Of a stretch of DNA of 33,302 bases, positions 1,516 to 18,576 are shown one piece after another. The notes under the pieces were generated by a model that saw only the letters and a list, made by a program, of their open reading frames with translations, did no database searches and was not told the origin of the DNA. This DNA comes from a virus. The DNA lies in IMG/VR virus record IMGVR_UViG_3300044834_000100, positions 1-33,302 of that record. One strand, given 5' to 3'. Position 1 is the stretch's first letter, and the number at the start of each line of letters is the position of its first letter. The translations under genes were made by a program, and so were the position numbers.

Positions 1516-3843
1516 ATGTATCTCGACGAAGGCCGATGCGCGCATTGCCACAAGCAGCTCGACGATACCTACCGCACCGCTCCCTACAACACCAACTTCG
1601 ACCACTTGCTCACTCGCCATCAGTACCGGCCATATTTCTGTTCGGAAGCGCATGTCGCTAAGACCCTAGAGGTCTACTTGCCCGCTGATTACGGGGAGCG
1701 GGGACAGGAAGAAGACCTGTATTGGTTAAGATTACGGGGCATGGAATATGACCCTGATACGTCCGAAGGTATGAGGCTCTTCGAAAGCTGCAAACAAGAG
1801 CTCGAATCAATCCGCGCCACGAAACGTTTCGCAGACGAAGACGCCTACCAAGACGCGTGGTCGCATGTGCTCGATGAGTTCAATGAGGCGGCGATCAAAA
1901 AACACGAAGCCGAAAACCCGCAACCTCTTTCAAGCCATGACGAGTACTTTGCAACACGTGTACCGCAAAGCGAGGACATGTCTATCGACTACGGGACTAT
2001 TCTCGCCCGAGCCAGAATAGAAAGCTTGCCCACGGTCATGCACATGTGGGTTGAGACGTTGCTCTGCTACATAAAACTCGCTGACAAGCGGTCTGATTAT
2101 TATTCTAAAGACCCCCACGGCGATCTTGCCGCCTTCCTCAAGGATACGCTTCAGCAGATCGGTCCCGCCGTAAATTGGGAGGCTTCATGGGAAGCCCCAC
2201 GAGTAGGATCGCTTACAATTTCGGAATTAGCCGCGCAGCCGATCGCATACTTTGAACGCGCCTACAACATTTTCAGGCAAACTCACGGTCTGACGGCCTC
2301 CATCGAAACCAACTTGCGAAAATTTGTGGGCGCCCGTGACGACAAGATGAGCGACGCCGAACTCTGGCAGCGGGTTGACCGTGACAAGCCAGCCCGCGAG
2401 ATCGCTCAGGCGGTCTTTGGCGAAAGCCCGCTAGGCCGATTTCTTGAACTCGAATTTCCCGTCTGCGCCTCCGATCAAACAAGGTACGAACACACGCATA
2501 TTCTTGGCCCATCCGGGTCAGGAAAAACTACGCTCATTCAAGACATTGTCCTTAAGAACCTTGCCAGGCCAAATCCTCCCGCGATGGTGATCATCGACCC
2601 CAAAGGATTGATGACCGACCGCATCCAGAAACTCAACATGTTCAACCCGCATAACGGCAAGCTCAAGGACCGGCTTGTTATAGTTGATCCCACTGAAGAC
2701 CCGCCCCCTGCGCTCAACATGTTCGATCCTAAGTCAGACCCCTCGTGGACGGAGGCGCAGCGTCGGAGCATCATCAATCAGGCGATTAACAGCTTTGCAT
2801 TTGTATTTTCGAGCACCGGATCGGCCATAACTGCCAAACAGCTCCCGGTGTTTGCCGCTGCTGTCCGCCTGATATTTTCAATGAAAGGGAACATCAGTCG
2901 GCTGCTGGATTTCCTCGAAGATCCCGCCAAATCTGCGGACACAAGTGTCTTCGCTCCAGAGATCGCCCGGTTGGACCCTCTTTCACAACGCCTCATCCGA
3001 TCCGACTACTATTCATCGCAATATGGCGAAACACGCCAACAGCTTAAGGCCCGCATCTACGGGCTCCTGCAATACCCCGAGATCGAGGAAATGCTGCGGC
3101 CCCCGATCCGCACACTGGACATTCACGCCTGCCTACAAAACCGGAAGATTGTGCTTGTTAACACGGCGATGAATCGGCTCGGCGCCCAAGCATCGGCCCT
3201 GATTGGCCGATATCTTATCGCCCTTACTCTCAACGCGGCATACGCGCGGATATCTTTACCGAAAGACCAGTGGAATCCTGCTTATCTCATTATCGACGAG
3301 TTCCAGGAATTCGCGGACGAGGAAAAGACGCCGGAATTGTTGAGGCTGGCTCGTGAATACAATCTCGGTTGTGTGCTTGCTCACCAGACCATGCACGGGA
3401 TGGAATTCAGCGAGTCGCTGCGCAATGCAATCTCGACAAACACGACTATCAAATACACGTCTTCACCAGAAGGCATCGACATCGGGTATATGGCCCGCGA
3501 CCTAGGCTGCAAGCCGGAATATCTAAAACGGCATGTGAAGAACGCTACTCACGCCAACTTCGCTTGCAAGGTTCGTGGCGTTGCCGGACCGTTCAGCGTG
3601 TCTATTCCCTTTGGAGCGATCGAAAAAGAGCCGCAGATGAGTGGCGCGGCATTGAATGAATTGCTTGCGCGGAATCGCAAAGCCCTGGGCGGCATGCCCG
3701 AACCAGAACAAACGCTGCCGCCTACATCGGTCGTTGAAAAGACGGTGGACACGATTATGGCTCCTCTCGCAGAGCAGGTGGTGCCTTCAGAAAAGCCACC
3801 GGCGGCGCAGACTTCCGCGGCGAGCGAGGACGGCTGGGCTTAA
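1516..3843 (+). CDS. TraD/VirD4-like (type IV coupling) ATPase with N-terminal zinc finger
   Basis: 775 residues from ATG 1516, chosen over TTG 1495 because GGGGGA (1505-1510) ends 5 nt upstream. Residues C8, C11 and C42 with nearby His residues suggest a small zinc ribbon. Walker A GPSGSGKT is at 331-338 and Walker B LIIDE ends at D594-E595, followed by LAHQT, as in TraM-recognition/VirD4 ATPases, which bring relaxed DNA to a conjugation channel. I see no transmembrane helix in the N-terminus, unlike classical coupling proteins, so a cytosolic DNA pump or a replication role is possible. The C-terminal 50 residues are Pro/Ala/Glu-rich linker. The next gene, replication-relaxation-like, is a usual companion of such ATPases. 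No other secretion gene is in the window. Confidence 0.8.
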   Translation: MYLDEGRCAHCHKQLDDTYRTAPYNTNFDHLLTRHQYRPYFCSEAHVAKTLEVYLPADYGERGQEEDLYWLRLRGMEYDPDTSEGMRLFESCKQELESIRATKRFADEDAYQDAWSHVLDEFNEAAIKKHEAENPQPLSSHDEYFATRVPQSEDMSIDYGTILARARIESLPTVMHMWVETLLCYIKLADKRSDYYSKDPHGDLAAFLKDTLQQIGPAVNWEASWEAPRVGSLTISELAAQPIAYFERAYNIFRQTHGLTASIETNLRKFVGARDDKMSDAELWQRVDRDKPAREIAQAVFGESPLGRFLELEFPVCASDQTRYEHTHILGPSGSGKTTLIQDIVLKNLARPNPPAMVIIDPKGLMTDRIQKLNMFNPHNGKLKDRLVIVDPTEDPPPALNMFDPKSDPSWTEAQRRSIINQAINSFAFVFSSTGSAITAKQLPVFAAAVRLIFSMKGNISRLLDFLEDPAKSADTSVFAPEIARLDPLSQRLIRSDYYSSQYGETRQQLKARIYGLLQYPEIEEMLRPPIRTLDIHACLQNRKIVLVNTAMNRLGAQASALIGRYLIALTLNAAYARISLPKDQWNPAYLIIDEFQEFADEEKTPELLRLAREYNLGCVLAHQTMHGMEFSESLRNAISTNTTIKYTSSPEGIDIGYMARDLGCKPEYLKRHVKNATHANFACKVRGVAGPFSVSIPFGAIEKEPQMSGAALNELLARNRKALGGMPEPEQTLPPTSVVEKTVDTIMAPLAEQVVPSEKPPAAQTSAASEDGWA

Positions 3844-3851
3844 ACATCTGT

Positions 3852-3857
3852 TATAAT
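3852..3857 (+). promoter_or_regulatory. Extended -10 promoter for the replication-relaxation-like gene
   Basis: TGT directly followed by TATAAT (consensus extended -10), 8 nt after the stop of the coupling ATPase. Transcription would begin near 3864, giving a leader of about 93 nt before ATG 3957. No good -35 was seen. Confidence 0.55.
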
Positions 3858-3956
3858 TATTTTGCATCCGCGCTGCGGCACCTAGCGCCGTATCCATGCG
3901 CATGCTGTCTCATAGCGAATCTTTCCAAATGAATTTTAGCGCTCTATCAATTTATT

Positions 3957-4928
3957 ATGGACACAACGAAGGCACGAATACAGCGTTCTCAGAGTCGCGC
4001 TTCTACAGCACCGTTTGTTGCTCCGGACGGGCATGTCGTTAAGCGCAGAGTTCTCGACCGTGACATAGAGCTTCTTAGTCTCTTTGCGCGTCGTCGCTAT
4101 CTCTCCGCACTTTACGCTGCAGCGCTCCTACGCCGTTCGGAGCAGGGGATCAGCCGGCGGTTACGCGCCCTCAAAGAGGATGGCGTTGACCTGCTGAAGC
4201 TGTGTGACTTGCAAGAGAATGACAGAGGCGCACGTATCGTGGGCTACCTGTACTACGAGCTCACAAAGAATGGAATGGTTGAGCTCGCGGAAGAGGGGAT
4301 TACCGCCCCGGCCCGCTCGCCGGATAAACAGTTTCCGCACACGCTAATGATCGACCAGATCATGACTTCTTTTGATATCGGTCTCATGGACCGCAGCGAC
4401 ATTGTTATGCGGGCCTTTGCGGACCTCCTGCCTTCAATGCCGGAAGCCACCCGTAACGCGCCACACAGCCATCAAATTTTTATTGGTAAGCGTGATGGGA
4501 AACCTCATTCCTTGATCCCCGATGATCGACCGTTCGCGTTGGAGCGCACTGTGGACGGAAAACGCCGAAACTTTCCGGGCATTGAAGCCGACACCGCATC
4601 CATGCCGCAAAATCCGGCGGACTTCGCACGATCCGCGATCTGCAACAAGTTCGCTGACTATCTTTATTGCTTGGAAAACGACCTCTTTCGAAATCGGTAC
4701 GGCTTCAAAACGACGTTCGTCCCCTTCATTACGCGAACGAAAGTCCGCATGGAAAATATGAAAAGCCACTTGGCCGCAATGACCGAGGGCAAGCCGTCGC
4801 TGCGCCAGTGGTTTCTTTTCAAAACACATCCGACGATAAAATCGCGTGAAAAGCCCCGTGCTACCGGTCACATGCTCACCGAGCCATGGTCGCGCGTCGG
4901 ATACCCAGACCTGCAACTCGATCAATAG
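3957..4928 (+). CDS. Replication-relaxation-like winged-helix protein
   Basis: 323 residues. The N-terminal part (about 36-115) has the pattern of the Replic_Relax family (PF13814): DRDIELLSLFARRRYLSA, then a Leu-rich recognition helix with RLRALKEDG, then a YYELTKNG wing. The second half keeps an acidic FPGIEAD strand and a K..DYLYCLEN helix, also usual in the family. Known members are needed for plasmid replication and DNA relaxation and often lie beside TraD-like ATPases, as here. No HUH (three-His) relaxase motif is present. The start has no SD; the ATG is preceded by TTATT. Likely acts on element DNA with the upstream ATPase; the exact biochemical role is not known. Confidence 0.6.
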   Translation: MDTTKARIQRSQSRASTAPFVAPDGHVVKRRVLDRDIELLSLFARRRYLSALYAAALLRRSEQGISRRLRALKEDGVDLLKLCDLQENDRGARIVGYLYYELTKNGMVELAEEGITAPARSPDKQFPHTLMIDQIMTSFDIGLMDRSDIVMRAFADLLPSMPEATRNAPHSHQIFIGKRDGKPHSLIPDDRPFALERTVDGKRRNFPGIEADTASMPQNPADFARSAICNKFADYLYCLENDLFRNRYGFKTTFVPFITRTKVRMENMKSHLAAMTEGKPSLRQWFLFKTHPTIKSREKPRATGHMLTEPWSRVGYPDLQLDQ

Positions 4929-4937
4929 GAGGCGCCA

Positions 4938-5120
4938 GTGCTCGAAGATCGCATCAACCGCGTTGCGGTACTGTTGGCCAAGCGTGAGGAGATCAACAAT
5001 GAGCTGGCTCAGCTCCTCGGGGTGGAACCAAAAGCAAAACGTGGCCGGCCGCGCGCAGACGCAAAAGAAAAAGACGGCACGCCTCCTGTGCCGTCCAATG
5101 GGTCCGCCGCATCCGCCTGA
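4938..5120 (+). CDS. AT-hook-containing small basic protein
   Basis: 60 residues starting at GTG 4938, fixed by a strong AGGAGG (4927-4932). An N-terminal helix with heptad-like Leu/Val (RINRVAVLLAKREEINNELA) is followed by KRGRPRA, a canonical AT-hook core (RGRP) that binds the minor groove, and a disordered Pro/Ser/Ala tail. It begins 9 nt after the replication-relaxation-like gene and its SD overlaps that stop, so the two are co-transcribed. It may be a DNA-architectural or regulatory partner of its upstream neighbours. No closer family recognised. Confidence 0.6.
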   Translation: MLEDRINRVAVLLAKREEINNELAQLLGVEPKAKRGRPRADAKEKDGTPPVPSNGSAASA

Positions 5121-5121
5121 G

Positions 5122-5370
5122 TTATTCGTCGATCGGCTGGTCGTCATCCGCAAACGGCGGGACCAGGACCATCGAGCCGTTCCAACCGGCGATCGGGAGA
5201 GTGTTGAGCTTCACTGTGAAGCCCGGCTCATTGTTCTTGCGAGCGAAGGCAACCCCGACCGGAGACCAGTCGCGTGCTCCGGGACCCGTCTTCGCTCGGA
5301 CGTAAAAGGCGATCTCGCGCTTCTCGGTTTGCATACCGCGTCGCACGGGACGCGTATCGGTCATGCTCAT
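5122..5370 (-). CDS. Conserved hypothetical small protein
   Basis: 82 residues on the minus strand, tail to tail with the AT-hook gene (1 nt apart). The central pattern KREIAFYVRAKTG...WSPVGVAF...GFTVKLNTLPI..W.GSMVLVPP is a beta-rich layout I associate with small conserved proteobacterial proteins of unknown function. Two adjacent ATG codons (5370 and 5364) could each start it; GGGAGA lies 13-14 nt before the first. It is divergent from the primase-like gene and shares its 198-nt promoter region, which carries an inverted repeat. Function unknown. Confidence 0.6.
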   Translation of the reverse strand: MSMTDTRPVRRGMQTEKREIAFYVRAKTGPGARDWSPVGVAFARKNNEPGFTVKLNTLPIAGWNGSMVLVPPFADDDQPIDE

Positions 5371-5495
5371 TGCATGCTCGCTTTCTCCCGCGATGTTCGA
5401 GTGCGGGTGGGGGGGGCGAGGACTAGCACCTGCATCGTGTCAGCTTCACACGACTTTAGCGGCTGTACGCGTTCCCCCCATCCACACTCCAATCA

Positions 5496-5548
5496 CTATC
5501 CCCATCATACCAAAGAAGGCCGCACGCCGGATGAGACAATGGGGATAG
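5496..5548. promoter_or_regulatory. Inverted repeat in a divergent promoter region
   Basis: CTATCCCCAT (5496-5505) and ATGGGGATAG (5539-5548) are perfect 10-bp inverted arms 33 nt apart, between the divergent genes at 5370(-) and 5569(+). The right arm overlaps a weak extended -10 (TGA-GACAAT, 5535-5540) and its predicted start of transcription. Candidate repressor operator; alternatively an mRNA hairpin just before the SD at 5557. Confidence 0.45.
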
Positions 5549-5568
5549 GCAATAACGGAGGTGTGACC

Positions 5569-6348
5569 ATGAGCATCGTCGATTTCGCGACCATCAAGGC
5601 ACGCGTGAAGATGGCAGATGCCGTACCGTGGCTTGGCTTGCAGATGAAGCAGGAGAGCCCCGGCCAATTCCGCTCCCCCTGTCCCGCTTGCAAGTCGACG
5701 GACCGGCGGGCACTCAGCGTCAACACGACCAAGGACATGTTCAAGTGCTTCGCATGGGGCAAGGGCGGCACGGATGCAATCGCCCTGGTCGCTCACATCA
5801 AAGGCGTTTCGCAACGGGACGCCGCAGCCATGCTGGATCAAGCGTTCCAAGCGTCGGCCACCACGCCGCGACCAGTTCAAGGTACCCCCCAGCCGGCCGC
5901 GGAGAGGAAGCCAGGATTCGACGCTGAGGCATACGCCAAGAGGCTCGACCCTGAGCATCCCTCTCTGAGCGGCTTGGAGGTTTCGGCGGAAACGCTCAAG
6001 GCGTTCAATGCGGGCTATGCGCTTAACGGGGTAAACGCACAGCGGCTGGCGCTTCCGCTGGAAGACGCGCAGGGCAAGGTGGTCGGTTACTTTGGACGGG
6101 CGCTCAGCGACGACAAGCAGCCGCTATTGAAGTTTGGCAGCGACATGGACCCACGCGATTACGTTTTCAACGTTTGCCGCGTGGAGGAAGGGACGGAAGT
6201 CCGTCTGGTACGCGACGTGCTCGACGTTCTGACGGCTCACGAAGTAGGGGAGGTGGCCATTTGCTTCCTCACCGATCTCATCGAGCCCGCACAATATGAG
6301 CGGCTCATCGCTGCTCAGCACGAGCTAAAGTTCACGGTGTACCTGTGA
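5569..6348 (+). CDS. CHC2-type zinc-finger primase-like protein
   Basis: 259 residues. ATG 5569 is fixed by GGAGGTG (5557-5563); the frame is open farther upstream but without a start signal. Residues 33-75 match the primase CHC2 zinc finger: CPAC (C38, C41), then FKCFAWGKGGTDAI. C60 is present but the fourth ligand position is Trp63. Around residue 200-259 a short alpha/beta segment (VRLVRDVLDVLTAHEVGEVAICFL) resembles a reduced Toprim fold without clear catalytic acids. No helicase domain. It could prime element replication or be a DNA-binding relic. It overlaps the next start by GTGA and heads a small-gene operon. Confidence 0.65.
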   Translation: MSIVDFATIKARVKMADAVPWLGLQMKQESPGQFRSPCPACKSTDRRALSVNTTKDMFKCFAWGKGGTDAIALVAHIKGVSQRDAAAMLDQAFQASATTPRPVQGTPQPAAERKPGFDAEAYAKRLDPEHPSLSGLEVSAETLKAFNAGYALNGVNAQRLALPLEDAQGKVVGYFGRALSDDKQPLLKFGSDMDPRDYVFNVCRVEEGTEVRLVRDVLDVLTAHEVGEVAICFLTDLIEPAQYERLIAAQHELKFTVYL

Positions 6349-6586: not shown

Positions 6587-6634
6587 GTCGCCTCCGTCAT
6601 TCAGCCCGCTTCGTTGGCTGATCATGGAGGTGAC
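6587..6634 (+). promoter_or_regulatory. SD-sequestering leader hairpin
   Basis: GTCGCCTCC (6587-6595) pairs over 9 bp, with one G-U, with GGAGGTGAC (6626-6634), the SD of the DUF3768 gene. Inside, TCAGCC (6601-6606) pairs with GGCTGA (6616-6621). The whole leader thus folds into one long hairpin that hides the ribosome-binding site: a candidate RNA thermometer or protein-controlled switch. Confidence 0.55.
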
Positions 6635-6635
6635 A

Positions 6636-6974
6636 ATGCTCAACGTTCCTTCAAAATCCGAGCGGATACGCGATCTCAATGACCGCTTCCGAAACACGTT
6701 TGTCGGCGGCGTGGTGACGATCACACAAGGAGTTGTTGCCCTGTGCGGCGAAGTGAAAGCGGAGGTGTTGCGACGCGTTCGCACGTTCTCGCATTTCGAC
6801 GAGGACAACGATCCGCACAAGGAGCACGACTTCGGGGCGTTCGCCATAGGGAATCAGCGCTTCTTCTTCAAGCTGGATTATTACAATCGCGAGATGGACG
6901 GCGGCGCCGAAGATCCCGCCGACACGTCGAAGACGACCCGCGTGCTTACGATCATGCTCGCAGAGGAGTATTGA
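6636..6974 (+). CDS. DUF3768 family protein
   Basis: 112 residues from ATG 6636, chosen because GGAGGTG ends 3 nt upstream; ATG 6624 contains the SD itself. The whole protein fits DUF3768 (PF12599): RIRDLNDRFR, GGVVTITQGV, the hallmark NDPHKEHDFGAF, FFKLDYY and the C-terminal TTRVLTIMLAEEY. The family is common in alphaproteobacterial plasmids and mobile elements; its function is unknown. First gene of a three-gene operon (spacing 2 nt and a 4-nt overlap) driven by the promoter at 6573 and controlled by the leader hairpin. Confidence 0.85.
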   Translation: MLNVPSKSERIRDLNDRFRNTFVGGVVTITQGVVALCGEVKAEVLRRVRTFSHFDEDNDPHKEHDFGAFAIGNQRFFFKLDYYNREMDGGAEDPADTSKTTRVLTIMLAEEY

Positions 6975-10743: not shown

Positions 10744-11361
10744 ATGGTACGCAAGAAGGCCCGTCCACCAGCGGAAGAAGAACAGCTCAAAGCCAAGCGT
10801 GAGCTTTTCTGCCGGTACTACACCCAGAACCAAGAGCTATTTGGCAACGCGACCCTCTCGTATGCGGAGGCCTTTGATTACGATCTAGATGCTCTGTCCC
10901 GTAAGGCCGTCTATGCGGAAGTGATCGACGAGGAGACAGGCGAGACCAGCGAGGGTGCTCTGATAGACGACAGCCCCTACGACAAGGCGTACCACGTCTG
11001 TTCCGTTCTGTCCTCACGACTGTTAAGAAACGTTGAGATTCAGGCCCGCATTACCGTTCTCCTGAATGAATTGCTCAAAGACGAAGTGGTGGACAGCCAG
11101 CTCGCCAAGCTCGTCATGCAGAATGGCGACAACACCAACAAGATCGCAGCAATACGCGAGTTCAACAAATTGCGCGGACGCATCATCGACAGGACGCAGC
11201 AAGTGAACCGCCTTCCGTTCGGAGAGACGGACCTATCGCTTGTCCTCGCAACGCTCCCACAGGAGCGCCAAGACTATTTCTATGGAATTATCAGAGACAT
11301 CATCGAGGAAGCCGAGCTTCTCCGAAGCGCTGGAGCGGCTGAAGGCAGCGGCACTCGGTAA
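10744..11361 (+). CDS. terS: Terminase small subunit
   Basis: 205 residues from ATG 10744, chosen over upstream in-frame starts because the -10 hexamer ends 8 nt before it and the typical basic N-terminus (MVRKKARPPAEEEQ) begins there. FCRYYTQNQELFGNATLSYAEAF is the terminase-small signature; LRNVEIQARITVLLNELLKDEVVD and KIAAIREFNKLRGRI follow as in the family, and the acidic middle (EETGETSEG) is a linker. It binds the packaging site and recruits the large subunit encoded next. Frames overlap with the large subunit. Confidence 0.85.
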   Translation: MVRKKARPPAEEEQLKAKRELFCRYYTQNQELFGNATLSYAEAFDYDLDALSRKAVYAEVIDEETGETSEGALIDDSPYDKAYHVCSVLSSRLLRNVEIQARITVLLNELLKDEVVDSQLAKLVMQNGDNTNKIAAIREFNKLRGRIIDRTQQVNRLPFGETDLSLVLATLPQERQDYFYGIIRDIIEEAELLRSAGAAEGSGTR

Positions 11362-12952
11362 TCCGGAAGACATCCGGCGTCGTTATGGAACGAAGCCGAT
11401 ACAGCTCCTCCGGTTTATCGATCCGACAATGCGCTTCCCCAAGAAGCTGCGTTTGATATTTGCCCTCATATGGTTGCGCCAGGATCAGAAGGGACGGCTC
11501 GCTACCCGCTTCATCATCAAAGGACCACGCGGCGGCGGTAAGTCAAAGATTCTCGGAGCGCTCGGGTTCGTCAAATGGTTCCTGCAGCTCCTATCGATCG
11601 TCGACATGGGCGGCTCACTCACTCAGGCGCAGGGCGTCTACAACTACTTTGTCGGTCATATCTATGCACAAAAGACCATCGTCGACGCGCTGCCCGACGA
11701 GCCGACGATGAACAAGACGGAGAGCGACAAGGGAAACTATTTCAAGGCGGTTGCAGCGTCACCGAAGGCAGTCCGAGGACCGCACCCGGACAATCTCTTC
11801 ATCGACGAGGCGTGCGAGACCAAGGACCAGCTCATCCTCGACGCCATGCCAATGGTCAACACGTCCCAGTACTCCCTCGTGGTGATGACATCCACATTCC
11901 ACAAAATCTTTGGGTACTTCCAAGAGACCTGGGACCGGGCGGACGAGCTGGGCTGGGTACGCCTGTCATGGGACAGCTTCGACGTGTGCCGCGAGTTCAG
12001 CCCCGACATTTGGAAGGACGAGCGGCTACTGCGTGAGATCCCGGACCTGACCATCGCACAGGCAGGCACCAGCTCGCTTGAGCACAGGGCAGGGCGCCGC
12101 ACTGGCGATCCCGAGGGCTGGATACCGGTAGAGAACATCATCCAGGCATGGCGCGAGAAGACAACCGTCGACTATTTCGACGTGGAGTACATGGGCTCGC
12201 GCCCAAGCGCGGAAGGCATGGTCAACGACCCCGAGGACGTGGACGCATGCGTGATCGACGAATTCGGGGAGTACGCCTATGTGCCCGGTGCCGATACAGC
12301 GGGAGGGCTCGACTGGGGCTTCTCAGGCCAGACGTCGTGGGTAGCCATGATGGCGCACAAAGACTTCGTCAAGGTACAGCTTGAAAACCGACTCTGGACC
12401 CAGGTTCGTAGTGGCGTCATCATTTCCGACATCGTGGACGACGTGCTCGCCTACCGCATACGGGTTATCCACGCCGACGCGTCGCATCCCTTCGAGAATG
12501 CCGATCTACGGGCAGCCGTCAAATCGGCAATCCAAGCCCTGCCTGAGAAGGAACAGTTCGTGTGTACCGTGGTGGAGGTGCCGTTCGGACGCCCCATGCA
12601 GGTAGCGGAACAGGACAAGAAGGGGGATGGAACCAATAAGAAGCGCGAGCTGCAGAAGAAGCTCGGCACCGAGAAGGAGTCGATGCTCGGCAATTACCGG
12701 GCGTACTTCTCCCGCCGGCTGCTGCGCATCCTCCGCGAGTGCAAGACAGCCATCTGGCAGCACAAGCGATATCGCTACCAGAAGAACAGCGATAAGCCCG
12801 TAAAAGAGGACGATCACATCCCGGACTCGACGATGCTCTGTCTGCGTCGTTGGATGCTCGGCAAGAGTGCCAGCTCCATGCCACGCGACACAGACAAGAA
12901 GGCCGTCGGGACTTCTACAGTCACAGGTGGGTTACTCGATGAGGTGTTTTAA
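11282..12952 (+). CDS. terL: Terminase large subunit
   Basis: 556 residues from ATG 11282. This start overlaps terS by 80 nt and lacks an SD, but its TTTCT-ATGG context matches other late genes; TTG 11240 is the alternative. ATPase: Walker A GPRGGGKS (81-88), Walker B LFIDE (D175-E176), coupling motif TSTF (203-206). Nuclease: D344 in GGLDWGF, D399 in HADASHP, and DDHIPDS (D511, D515), the three acidic clusters of the RNase H-like domain. It pumps and cuts DNA at the portal. Directly precedes the portal gene. Confidence 0.92.
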   Translation: MELSETSSRKPSFSEALERLKAAALGNPEDIRRRYGTKPIQLLRFIDPTMRFPKKLRLIFALIWLRQDQKGRLATRFIIKGPRGGGKSKILGALGFVKWFLQLLSIVDMGGSLTQAQGVYNYFVGHIYAQKTIVDALPDEPTMNKTESDKGNYFKAVAASPKAVRGPHPDNLFIDEACETKDQLILDAMPMVNTSQYSLVVMTSTFHKIFGYFQETWDRADELGWVRLSWDSFDVCREFSPDIWKDERLLREIPDLTIAQAGTSSLEHRAGRRTGDPEGWIPVENIIQAWREKTTVDYFDVEYMGSRPSAEGMVNDPEDVDACVIDEFGEYAYVPGADTAGGLDWGFSGQTSWVAMMAHKDFVKVQLENRLWTQVRSGVIISDIVDDVLAYRIRVIHADASHPFENADLRAAVKSAIQALPEKEQFVCTVVEVPFGRPMQVAEQDKKGDGTNKKRELQKKLGTEKESMLGNYRAYFSRRLLRILRECKTAIWQHKRYRYQKNSDKPVKEDDHIPDSTMLCLRRWMLGKSASSMPRDTDKKAVGTSTVTGGLLDEVF

Positions 12953-12972: not shown

Positions 12973-15195
12973 ATGACTACCGGCTTCAAGACGCGCAAGC
13001 GCACTGCCGCTGAAAAGAAAAAGAACAAAGTCGGTTTGGAAGTCGGCGATACCGGAACGAAGATATTCGACGGCATCATCAGCGAAGAATACAATTCGAA
13101 ACTCGCTGACATTCGCGGCATCGCAATCTACGACGAGATGCGAAAGAGCGACGGCACCGTAAAGGCGGCCGTGCAGGCTGTCACGCTGCCGATACGCGCC
13201 GCCGAATGGTTTGTGAACCCGGCGACTGAGGAGCAAGCAGATCAAGACATCGCTGACTTCGTTACGCAATGTCTCTGGGAATATCAGGACTGCACGTTCG
13301 ATGATTTCTTACGCCAGGCGCTTCTCTCTTTGCCATTCGGGGTGATGGTCTTTGAGAAAGTGTTCAGCACTCGCGAGGTTGAGGGCGGCACGCGCATCGT
13401 ATGGGAGAAGCTCGCGCCGCGACTTCCGAAATCTATCCAGAAGTGGGCTATTGCCGACAAGTCGTTCGGCATCAGGCAGCAGAAGTCCGATGGCAGCGTA
13501 GCTGAGATACCCGGCGAGAAGCTGATCGTCTTCGTTCACGAGAAGGAGGGCGAGAACTGGTGGGGCGTTTCAATACTGCGTGCGGCATATAAGCACTGGT
13601 TCATCAAGAACACTATTTACAAAATCGACGCGATTGCATTCGAGCGTCAGGGGTTGGGCGTCCCGTACGCGAAGCTGCCCGAGGGCGCGACCGAAAGCGA
13701 CCGCCGCAAGGCGGAGGAAATTCTCAAGAACCTCCGGGCGAACTCGCAGGCATACATCATTGAGCCGCATGATTACGAGATCGGCTTCAAGGATATGCAA
13801 GCCGACAAGACGCGCGATCCGCAGAACTCCATCGCACATCACAACCGCGAGATCACGAAATCCGTACTCGCGCAATTCCTGGAGCTTGGGCAGAGCAGCA
13901 GCAGCGGATCAGGCGGGAGCCGCGCGCTGTCAGAAGACCATTCAGAACTATTCTTGCAATCGATCGAGACCATCGCGCGGTCGTTCGCAAGCGTGATGAA
14001 CAAGCACATCAAGGAACTTGTGGACCTCAACTTCGACGGCGTGAAGGAATACCCGAAGCTCGATTTTGAAGGCATCACCGCCGTGGACGTGAAGGCACTA
14101 GCCGACGCGTATCAGGTCCTCATTACCGCGGGAGCACTGACCGCACAGGATGCAGACGAGGGCTTGTTCCGCGAGCAGCTCGGGTTGCCCGAACTGGATG
14201 AGAGCGGCATCCGGGAGAAGGAGCCCGCCGCAACCCAGGTTGACCCGAACAATCCGGACCCGGCCCAAGCAAGCGAGCACCGCCACGTAAAAAAAAAGCC
14301 TCGCGCGTTCTCTGAGGCATTCAGGCCATACCGCAAGCTGACCTTTGCAGAAGGGAAGGTCAATTTCGACGCCCTCCAAAAGAAGCTGGACGAGCTGGAG
14401 AGCGTCTTCGACCAGCAGACCAAGGACCTTCTGACGGAGGCCCGGCATGGCTACATGGACGCACTGACCAAGGCCGCCCTTGCCGGCGACACCCAGGCCA
14501 TCAAAGACGCCACGCTGAAGGTCCAAAACGATTACGCCCGCATCCTCAAGAACGGCATGCAGAGCGCCTATATGTACGGCAAGAACAATGCCGCGAAAGA
14601 AATCGGGAAGGACGCCCCACCGAACCCGACCGAGATGCTACGGCAGATCGATATCCAGGCCGCAGCCATTGCCGATCAGCAGATTGCTTCCATCGTGACG
14701 GAGAGCAAGAACGCCTACGTTACGTCCCGGAACAAGGGCGAGTCCAAGAGCGTGGCTTTGGCCGCAGCCGATGCCGCCGCAGCAGCAGCGATTACGGACC
14801 TCACGGACGACGCTACCGGCATCCTCATGTCCGGGTACATCAACCACGGCCGCAATACGGTGTTCGACCGGAATGCCGACGACATTCACGGGCTGCAGCG
14901 GTCAGAGCTGATGGACGTGAGCACGTGCAATTACTGCCTGTCCGTGGACGGCCGGATCATCGAGAGTGACGACCCGTTCGGTCAGAACACGATTTTTCAT
15001 TCGAATTGCCGTGGGATTTGGGTTGCGATCCTCAAGGACGAAGAGGAGCTACCGAAGGTAGATGGTATTCCGAAATCGATACGAGATCGGTTCGGTGATG
15101 TGGTCAACGATCTGATTCAGCCAAAGAACCCGGTCACTCGGAAGGATTCCGCCGCGCGCGCGGAGGCGGATAAGCGGGCACGACGACAGCAATAA
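12973..15195 (+). CDS. Portal protein fused to MuF-like head morphogenesis domain
   Basis: 740 residues. Residues about 1-430 match the Mu gp29-like portal family (DUF935): the KSDGTVKAAVQAVTLPIRAAEW segment, GVMVFEKVF, RDPQNSIAHHNREITKSVL and a Gly/Ser-rich loop GQSSSSGSGGS. After a charged linker the C-terminal part (about 550-705) is the SPP1 gp7/Mu F type, with STCNYCLSVDGR and FHSNCRGIW. Mu and most relatives encode these as two proteins; here they are one, so each of 12 portal subunits would carry a MuF domain into the capsid. No SD; leaderless promoter upstream. Confidence 0.88.
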   Translation: MTTGFKTRKRTAAEKKKNKVGLEVGDTGTKIFDGIISEEYNSKLADIRGIAIYDEMRKSDGTVKAAVQAVTLPIRAAEWFVNPATEEQADQDIADFVTQCLWEYQDCTFDDFLRQALLSLPFGVMVFEKVFSTREVEGGTRIVWEKLAPRLPKSIQKWAIADKSFGIRQQKSDGSVAEIPGEKLIVFVHEKEGENWWGVSILRAAYKHWFIKNTIYKIDAIAFERQGLGVPYAKLPEGATESDRRKAEEILKNLRANSQAYIIEPHDYEIGFKDMQADKTRDPQNSIAHHNREITKSVLAQFLELGQSSSSGSGGSRALSEDHSELFLQSIETIARSFASVMNKHIKELVDLNFDGVKEYPKLDFEGITAVDVKALADAYQVLITAGALTAQDADEGLFREQLGLPELDESGIREKEPAATQVDPNNPDPAQASEHRHVKKKPRAFSEAFRPYRKLTFAEGKVNFDALQKKLDELESVFDQQTKDLLTEARHGYMDALTKAALAGDTQAIKDATLKVQNDYARILKNGMQSAYMYGKNNAAKEIGKDAPPNPTEMLRQIDIQAAAIADQQIASIVTESKNAYVTSRNKGESKSVALAAADAAAAAAITDLTDDATGILMSGYINHGRNTVFDRNADDIHGLQRSELMDVSTCNYCLSVDGRIIESDDPFGQNTIFHSNCRGIWVAILKDEEELPKVDGIPKSIRDRFGDVVNDLIQPKNPVTRKDSAARAEADKRARRQQ

Positions 15196-17646: not shown

Positions 17647-18576
17647 ATGTCTACCCCACGTTACCAAGGAGTCGACCCGATACTCACTGACGTATCGCTC
17701 GGCTACAAGAATGAGGCGTACATCTCGGAGCTTCTGCTCCCAACCCTGCCGGTCAAGTTCCAGAGCGGCAAGCACTTCGTTTACGACAAAGGAAAGTTCC
17801 GGTCCGAAGACAACATGCGCGGCATGGGGTCTCGATCGAAGGAAGTAACGCACAACATCAGCACCGGTCTGACGTACTTCTGCGAGGACCACGCCCTCAA
17901 GGAATTCGTTGCCGATGAGGAAGTGGACAATGCGCCAGCAGGCGTCGACCCGTACGTAGACGCAACGGAAAACGTCACCGAAAAGCATCTTGTGTCGCAG
18001 GAAATCGAAACGGCGGCGCTGCTTACGAGCACGTCCGTAATCACCTCGAACAGTACGCTTTCAGGTACGAGCCAGTGGTCAAACAGCAACTCCGATCCGG
18101 TCACGGCCATCCGCGAGGCGAAGCAGACGGTTCACGCCAACATCATGGTTGATCCGAACGTTCTCGTGCTCGGCAAGCAGGTAATCGACAAGCTGATCGA
18201 TCACCCGGCCATCATCGAGCGCGTGAAGTACTCGCAGCTCGGTGTTCTCAACACGGACCTTCTTGCACGCTTCTTCGATGTCGAGAGAGTCGTCATCGGC
18301 GGAGCGATGAAGAATGCCACCGTGGAAGGTCAAACGGACTCCATGTCATACATCTGGGGCAAAGACGCCCTCCTTGCGTACATTAATCCGCGCTTCGGTC
18401 AGAAGTCGGTAACGCTTGGTGTGAAGTACCAGTGGAAGACTCGCACGACCGAACGGCTTAACGGAACCGACGAACGCGACCGCCGCGGTCAGTTCATCCG
18501 CGTGGGAGATCACTACTACGATCCGCAGCTTATCGCCGCATCAGCCGGATACTTGTTCAAAAACGCAGTCGCTTAA
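17647..18576 (+). CDS. Major capsid protein
   Basis: 309 residues, predicted HK97-like major head protein by order and composition. N-terminal DPILTDVSLGYKNEAYISE and LLPTLPVKFQSGKHFVYDKG (N-arm and E-loop type region), then helical P-domain segments (VDPNVLVLGKQVIDKLIDHP, IIERVKY) and a C-terminal beta part ending QLIAASAGYLFKNAVA. Such proteins are annotated as capsid in many Mu-like and metagenomic phages. No SD; TT before ATG. A 10-bp hairpin follows the stop, probably protecting this abundant mRNA. Confidence 0.8.
   Translation: MSTPRYQGVDPILTDVSLGYKNEAYISELLLPTLPVKFQSGKHFVYDKGKFRSEDNMRGMGSRSKEVTHNISTGLTYFCEDHALKEFVADEEVDNAPAGVDPYVDATENVTEKHLVSQEIETAALLTSTSVITSNSTLSGTSQWSNSNSDPVTAIREAKQTVHANIMVDPNVLVLGKQVIDKLIDHPAIIERVKYSQLGVLNTDLLARFFDVERVVIGGAMKNATVEGQTDSMSYIWGKDALLAYINPRFGQKSVTLGVKYQWKTRTTERLNGTDERDRRGQFIRVGDHYYDPQLIAASAGYLFKNAVA

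Follow-up and report, generated by a model that had tools for sequence, protein, structure and literature searches.

What does a temperate phage do with a pair of genes of the kind that processes DNA for conjugation? The question was raised by the IMG/VR virus record IMGVR_UViG_3300044834_000100, all 33,302 bases of which were analysed here (the window) and whose first base is the start of a tyrosine integrase gene. In the window, a VirD4/TrwB/HerA-type ATPase (1516-3843; plus strand, as are all features below unless stated) is followed by a Replic_Relax-like protein (3957-4928). For the two genes, the analysis showed links to known families, a constant order, conserved putative active-site residues, a place within a prophage unit and retention across a phage lineage. 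They very probably form a mobilization-type DNA-processing module, made up of a coupling-protein-type ATPase and a MOBC-relaxase-like endonuclease and captured long ago by temperate phages of Bradyrhizobium-type soil bacteria, as judged from sequence comparisons and structural models. That the pair nicks and translocates the phage's own circular DNA falls a little short of an even chance. An earlier, sequence-only reading had proposed that a conjugation-type DNA-processing set is reused within a phage; the family links and the location inside a prophage unit bore out the conjugation-type origin and the residence in a phage.

The ATPase and its Replic_Relax partner

The ATPase has 775 amino acids from the ATG at 1516; a TTG start at 1495 is open as well. 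It matched the Pfam family TrwB_AAD_bind (PF10412) with 34.4 bits against a cut-off of 20.5 (E 1.5e-8) and TraG-D_C weakly (E 0.0014). Its AlphaFold model had a mean predicted local distance difference test (pLDDT) score of 76.5 and was good over residues 230-720. When the model was searched against PDB folds, TrwB came top (E 4.9e-10), then Cag beta, HerA and VirB4, and HerA, HerA-NurA and DUF4297-HerA were among the next-best matches. Walker A (GPSGSGKT, residues 331-338, 2506-2529) and Walker B (YLIIDEF, residues 590-596, 3283-3303) were both present, as expected of the RecA-like nucleotide-binding domain of a coupling protein. A sequence search of the PDB gave no match. Scans of the sequence collections with the ATPase as a single protein gave nothing, and relatives emerged only with alignments.

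The N-terminus of the ATPase carried a zinc-type motif, CxxC...FCSxxH/C, at residues 8-51 (1537-1668). The motif residues were C8-C11...C47/H51, and an equivalent motif was found in six relatives (L005, L087-L089, L032 and L006). There was no N-terminal membrane helix: the best 19-residue hydropathy before Walker A was 1.07, whereas homologues from Roseobacter islands had a strong hydrophobic N-terminal helix with values of 2.5-3.3 on the same scale. The closest phage relatives of the window ATPase likewise had no membrane helix. The missing anchor makes the ordinary function of a coupling protein less likely. Coordinates, the TrwB_AAD_bind match, fold and hydropathy agreed with the TraD/VirD4-like ATPase, with a zinc-finger N-terminus and no visible membrane anchor, described in the sequence-only reading. 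The Replic_Relax-like protein and the AT-hook protein (4938-5120) that it placed next were found as described.

The Replic_Relax protein has 323 amino acids. Its own match to Replic_Relax (PF13814) was 17.5 bits, under the Pfam cut-off of 25.3 (E 0.0046). The family search for its own record gave no match at E<=0.001, NCBIfam held no model naming it, and tblastn against plasmids and phages found nothing. The assignment came through its relatives. A Bradyrhizobium homologue was 55% identical, 12 of 17 close homologues matched PF13814 at E<=0.1 (best 5.5e-7), and island homologues matched it strongly, up to 4.7e-14. The family also holds TraX of pTEF1, annotated 'replication-relaxation family protein', which matched at 2e-6. 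pTEF1 is a pAD1-type plasmid typed MOBC in PLSDB, and its traX lies downstream of a TraM-recognition gene, which encodes a type IV coupling protein (T4CP). By the sequences of its relatives, the window protein is probably a member of the Pfam family of the MOBC relaxase TraX.

In the AlphaFold model (pLDDT 88.9), a winged helix was followed by a domain with restriction-endonuclease-like topology. The winged-helix N-terminus, about 80 residues, matched MarR/ArsR-type folds, and in the fold search it weakly resembled centromere-binding AspA. H128, D189, E210, D212 and Y235 were invariant across 43 Replic_Relax homologues, and D189, E210 and D212 (4521-4592) are the putative catalytic residues. 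In the phage copies, H128 and D189 were kept in all, and E210 and D212 in all but one each among the complete proteins. D152 and E170 of TraX, which Francia et al. reportedly mutated in 2013, stand in matching order to D189 and E210. A review relates MOBC relaxases, for which TraX is the tested case, to PD-(D/E)XK endonucleases and notes a winged helix in TraX (PMC12857230). A survey of streptococcal integrative and mobilizable elements (IMEs) lists PF13814 as MobC (PMC5357655). Together, family and model make the protein a candidate for a non-HUH relaxase within a phage.

This bears on the statement in the sequence-only reading that type IV secretion system (T4SS) genes and an HUH relaxase were absent. 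Neither was found among the Pfam and PHROG matches listed for the open reading frames (ORFs) of the window (25 of 30 families in one of the listings). To speak of no relaxase was misleading, because the Replic_Relax family holds non-HUH MOBC relaxases and the protein is itself a relaxase candidate.

Residence in a phage lineage

Relatives were collected by alignment-based scans of bacterial genomes and viral records, with the major head protein (17647-18576; phrog_1005, 8.7e-81) as an independent query. The iterated ATPase profile also caught shorter second ATPases of islands (390-460 amino acids), which were set apart. These scans returned 80 loci from bacterial genomes, chiefly of Alphaproteobacteria, as well as several viral contigs. 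In about 50 of the 80 the Replic_Relax gene lay close downstream of the ATPase gene; most of the others encoded longer ATPases with a conserved C-terminal extension. Every phage contig with either gene carried both (13 of 13), always adjacent and in one fixed order. The relatives selected by capsid gave the same picture: the pair was present in all five of at least 25 kb, and the 11 records lacking it were all fragments of less than 25 kb. In the left arms examined, the order ran from the integrase through a small regulator, sometimes an extra gene, the ATPase, Replic_Relax, often an AT-hook ORF and a primase to the terminase. The right arms held RecT, YqaJ and ligase genes.

When the whole genus was searched, a close ATPase turned up in a complete Bradyrhizobium chromosome (G196); a large terminase lay 7 kb from it on the same strand. 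The prophage there was bounded by two copies of a 42-bp tRNA-Gly(CCC) sequence, 47,324 bp apart. One integrase, the pair, a primase, terminase, portal and tail genes, a YqaJ-like gene and a methylase lay between them. The uninterrupted site was recognised in relatives as continuous matches over the left flank and the tRNA, 94% in one genome (G102) and 90% in another (G134). The phages of this family lie in or beside tRNA genes. The sequence-only reading had suggested looking for the pair next to terminase and portal genes in other prophages, and it was found there in G196 and in the phage relatives. It had also named the arrangement that would speak against it, namely a separate island that lies beside the phage and brings an integrase of its own. 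Such an island was ruled out by the single unit within attachment (att) repeats, with one integrase between them, and by the presence of the pair in all five capsid-selected relatives of at least 25 kb.

In the ATPase tree, one group took in 12 of the 14 phage copies together with two Bradyrhizobium loci (L006, L032), and two phage copies (L093, L126) stood apart from it. In the Replic_Relax tree, all 13 phage copies grouped with L032, L006 and L035 (support 98). Both trees were quick searches. By these phage-type clades the module is old in the phage lineage. L032 shows the phage-type order, primase included, and is probably a truncated prophage. The term 'phage-ICE hybrid' (ICE, integrative and conjugative element), offered as a possibility in the sequence-only reading, was overstated: no T4SS gene was seen and the module is long resident.

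Related genes were also found in other settings. In Roseobacter and Sphingomonad islands without a T4SS (L036-L074; for example L048 3038-19805 and L041 8782-20481), the ATPase and Replic_Relax genes came with a serine recombinase, small conserved proteins, a second T4CP-like ATPase of short length and defence-like cargo; an integrase of the window's type was often present too. Two phages (L116 7226-8416 in G019; L124 7620-8858 in G025) had in the right arm a second, shorter TraG-D_C ATPase that resembled the second one of the islands. About 30 related ATPases (L010-L030, L033, L076, L077, L080, L084) lacked a Replic_Relax partner and had instead a conserved domain fused at the C-terminus, in which H, Q, E, D, E and K are invariant. 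Pfam assigned no family to this domain in the members scanned, and profile comparison showed no similarity between it and Replic_Relax. One record, PP438423.1 'Microcystis phage Mwe-JY31' (L004), was set aside as phage evidence, as no virion gene was recognisable by eye. It carries ParA, a replication initiator-like gene, the ATPase and Replic_Relax, and looks like a plasmid.

Known systems and the possible function of the pair

The general idea is already known. In Tyroviruses (Bacillus phages Thrax1-5, Izhevsk and Kirov), a T4SS protein, gp17, and a replication-relaxation protein, gp18, resemble the pair by annotation (PMC9703825, PMC7685451). They were interpreted as captured plasmid genes for a plasmid-prophage state (PMC9703825), and Izhevsk and the Novomoskovsk/Bolokhovo phages are similar (PMC7685451, PMC9658697). 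However, Tyroviruses have genomes of 160-170 kb with ParM and three Xer recombinases, and the pair is absent from more distant members (PMC9703825). In the window's lineage, contigs were 16-51 kb, the pair lay beside one tRNA-targeting integrase and a primase, and no Par genes were seen. The window Replic_Relax protein also had fold matches in Bacillus phages JL and G. The phage G protein gp146 belongs to Replic_Relax (PF13814, 4.1e-25); it matched the fold of the window protein at E 1.1e-7 and has the PD..E.D in common with it. The T4CP-like gp156 matched the ATPase profile at 3.8e-51. Phage G differs in being a jumbo phage, and 5 kb separate these two genes, which lie on opposite strands with the VirB4-like gp155 (VirB4/TraG P-loop) between them. 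No integrase was listed in the stretch of its record examined. The genes for gp146, gp155 and gp156 lie within about 8 kb (L150 60-8337, phage G 85-93 kb).

Plasmids and islands offered further comparisons. pAD1/pTEF1 is like the window in its coupling ATPase followed by a PF13814 protein of MOBC type, with D152/E170 ordered as D189/E210, but it is a plasmid with its own conjugation genes and its TraX has no measurable direct-profile similarity to the window protein. The MOBC1 mobilizable plasmid CloDF13 also has its own T4CP (MobB) and MOBC relaxase (MobC) and no T4SS; MobB acts as coupling protein and in relaxation, and deletion of its transmembrane domain abolishes mobilization (PMC7431656). 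MobB requires its membrane domain, whereas the window ATPase has none. The ATPase and Replic_Relax profiles found no CloDF13 proteins in the record examined, whose mobB-like frame looks broken. T4SS-less alphaproteobacterial islands and plasmids had a homologous pair in the same order, often a related integrase, and sometimes a CHC2 primase and DUF3768. They differ in that no virion genes were recognised in the loci examined and many had a second, shorter T4CP-like ATPase. In the Roseobacter islands, the main ATPase was membrane-anchored. To the known systems, the present case adds a lineage of Bradyrhizobium-type phages, a constant position of the pair by integrase and primase, and an ATPase with a zinc motif and no anchor. 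No description of the Bradyrhizobium-type phage module was found in the open-licence literature.

We infer an intracellular role because an anchorless ATPase, a nuclease-like protein and a primase occur together and the right arms gave no helicase or initiator matches. Int and AlpA would excise the prophage circle, and the winged-helix endonuclease would bind and nick a site in the left arm. The soluble, anchorless and presumably hexameric ATPase would translocate along the nicked DNA or unwind it, and the adjacent CHC2 primase would prime it. Ahead of packaging, they might together set off replication of the phage genome or its processing, and no DNA would be pushed through a T4SS. In a narrower form of this proposal, which we consider rather unlikely, a conjugation-type relaxosome would take the place of a Rep/O-protein and helicase at the start of replication in these phages. 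In that form, equally doubtful, the MOBC-family endonuclease would nick the circle, the soluble ATPase would serve as helicase or translocase and the primase would complete the set. It is a similarly speculative suggestion that such a mode is common in outline to Bacillus phage G and the Tyroviruses.

Several observations weigh against the proposed identity and role. Direct profile comparison of the window protein with TraX failed (hhalign probability 0.3%), and a profile search against TraX aligned the winged helix only, with 0.2 bits. The TraX link therefore rests on common family, architecture and motif order. Structure prediction, which the sequence-only reading had proposed for finding a nuclease site, returned the winged helix and an endonuclease-like domain with D/E/D residues, but the best PDB match of this domain was MunI at E 0.025, which is weak and suggestive at most. 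A repeat search near the pair found no nick site or origin of transfer (oriT) and no direct-repeat array. The lack of a replicative helicase or initiator in the relatives' right arms was judged by Pfam matches only, and the window itself may be missing its right arm. Borderline hydrophobic N-terminal stretches were seen in three phage ATPases (L093, L125, L126). The two trees disagreed inside the phage group, with the window Replic_Relax nearest L032 (57%) and the window ATPase nearest L005 and L087-L090; the partners have therefore sometimes been exchanged.

Because the gene pair equals a mobilization set, the main rival is a working mobilization module, in which the MOBC-like protein would nick the excised prophage at an oriT and the ATPase would hand it to the T4SS of a co-resident conjugative element, so that the phage would gain a second way to spread, by conjugation. 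pTEF1 has the equivalent order of T4CP and Replic_Relax genes, MOBC1 mobilizable plasmids such as CloDF13 bring their own T4CP (PMC7431656, PMC7434980), and homologous pairs occur on plasmids and T4SS-less islands. An integrase with mobilization genes and no T4SS is also the plan of an IME, and the prophage has these. However, an IME has no virion genes, and terminase, portal, capsid and tail genes lie in the prophage unit. Moreover, the window ATPase and its close phage relatives lack the anchor on which transfer by MobB and TrwB depends, the repeat search gave nothing like an oriT, phages have a transfer route already, and the Replic_Relax fold occurs in phage G too. This reading was regarded as unlikely.

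A plasmid-style maintenance set, stabilising an excised or plasmid-like prophage by resolution, segregation or copy control, appeared improbable. It would fit the Tyrovirus genes, which lie near ParM and Xer genes and were interpreted as plasmid-prophage genes (PMC9703825; also PMC7685451, PMC9658697), the weak likeness of the winged helix to AspA, and the related pairs on plasmids that adjoin replication initiators. Yet no ParA/ParM/ParG-type partition gene was among the matches listed around the pair in the window or in the relatives' right arms, the phages have an integrase and sit in or beside tRNA genes, and segregation would not need conserved nuclease residues. It was more improbable still that the pair acts in defence, as a translocating ATPase and a nuclease directed at other phages or plasmids in the manner of HerA-nuclease systems. 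The HerA-type fold matches, the roughly 30 related ATPases with a fused domain in place of the partner and the defence-like cargo of some pair-bearing islands agree with such a role. Against these, the overlap with HerA is confined to the ATPase fold, the partner is of Replic_Relax and not NurA type, and the fused domain has no profile similarity to it. The integrase-primase location and the lineage-wide conservation are also unlike variable defence cargo, and the pair is the backbone of islands and plasmids.

The pair makes a mobilization core, a coupling ATPase with a candidate MOBC-type relaxase, a constant part of the gene set of a temperate phage lineage, and the complete prophage in a sequenced chromosome makes the module testable. 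Should the genes drive replication, relaxosome-type initiation would join the replication modes of phages. Should they serve mobilization, two cell-to-cell routes would be open to these prophages. In either case, counting Replic_Relax or T4CP genes as a sign of conjugative or mobilizable elements will lead software tools to misclassify such phages, and vice versa.

Neighbouring genes and a structured leader

The left end of the phage is formed by the tyrosine integrase (1-1098; Pfam Arm-DNA-bind_3 and Phage_integrase), which was found at the equivalent place in L087, L091-L094, L121, L126 and L032. It is followed by an AlpA-like excisionase or regulator (1233-1451), whose Phage_AlpA match (E 0.0045) was under the cut-off of that family; a small gene resembling it had the equivalent place in relatives. 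The AT-hook protein behind Replic_Relax has 60 amino acids with KRGRPR, and a counterpart lay downstream of Replic_Relax in five relatives (L006, L032, L092, L094, L126). A small conserved protein without a Pfam family (5122-5370, minus strand) had counterparts in L053 and several phages. The CHC2 zinc-finger primase-type protein (5563-6348) matched Zn_ribbon_DnaG above the cut-off and phrog_47 at 6.5e-18. The DUF3768 protein (6624-6974, by Pfam) belongs to a type that recurs across phages and pair-bearing non-phage islands, in 19 loci. Downstream of DUF3768 and small genes, the virion genes start with the large terminase (11240-12952; phrog_2, 3.8e-20) and the portal protein (12973-15195; phrog_113, 4.4e-87), followed by the head protease, the major head protein, tail genes and lysis genes. 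The presence of such genes for head, tail and lysis, stated in the sequence-only reading, was confirmed.

By folding and comparison, a structured leader with a long two-part terminal helix was recognised upstream of the small minus-strand gene (5371-5510, minus strand), between the Replic_Relax/AT-hook genes and the primase. It was kept in place in ten relatives (L087, L088, L089, L091-L094, L121, L123, L032), and Rfam gave no known RNA above cut-off there. Its order is a promoter-like TGGTATGAT, the two-part helix with a bulged A, a Shine-Dalgarno sequence and the small gene. In the second part of the helix the sequence varies and the pairing is retained. The loop is a complete tRNA-Met(CAT) in L123 and tRNA-Gln(TTG) in L089. 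An operator-like inverted repeat, CTATCCCCAT/ATGGGGATAG, was located at 5496-5505 and 5539-5548, with a similar one in L093. It sits where the small minus-strand gene and the primase gene diverge, between their starts.

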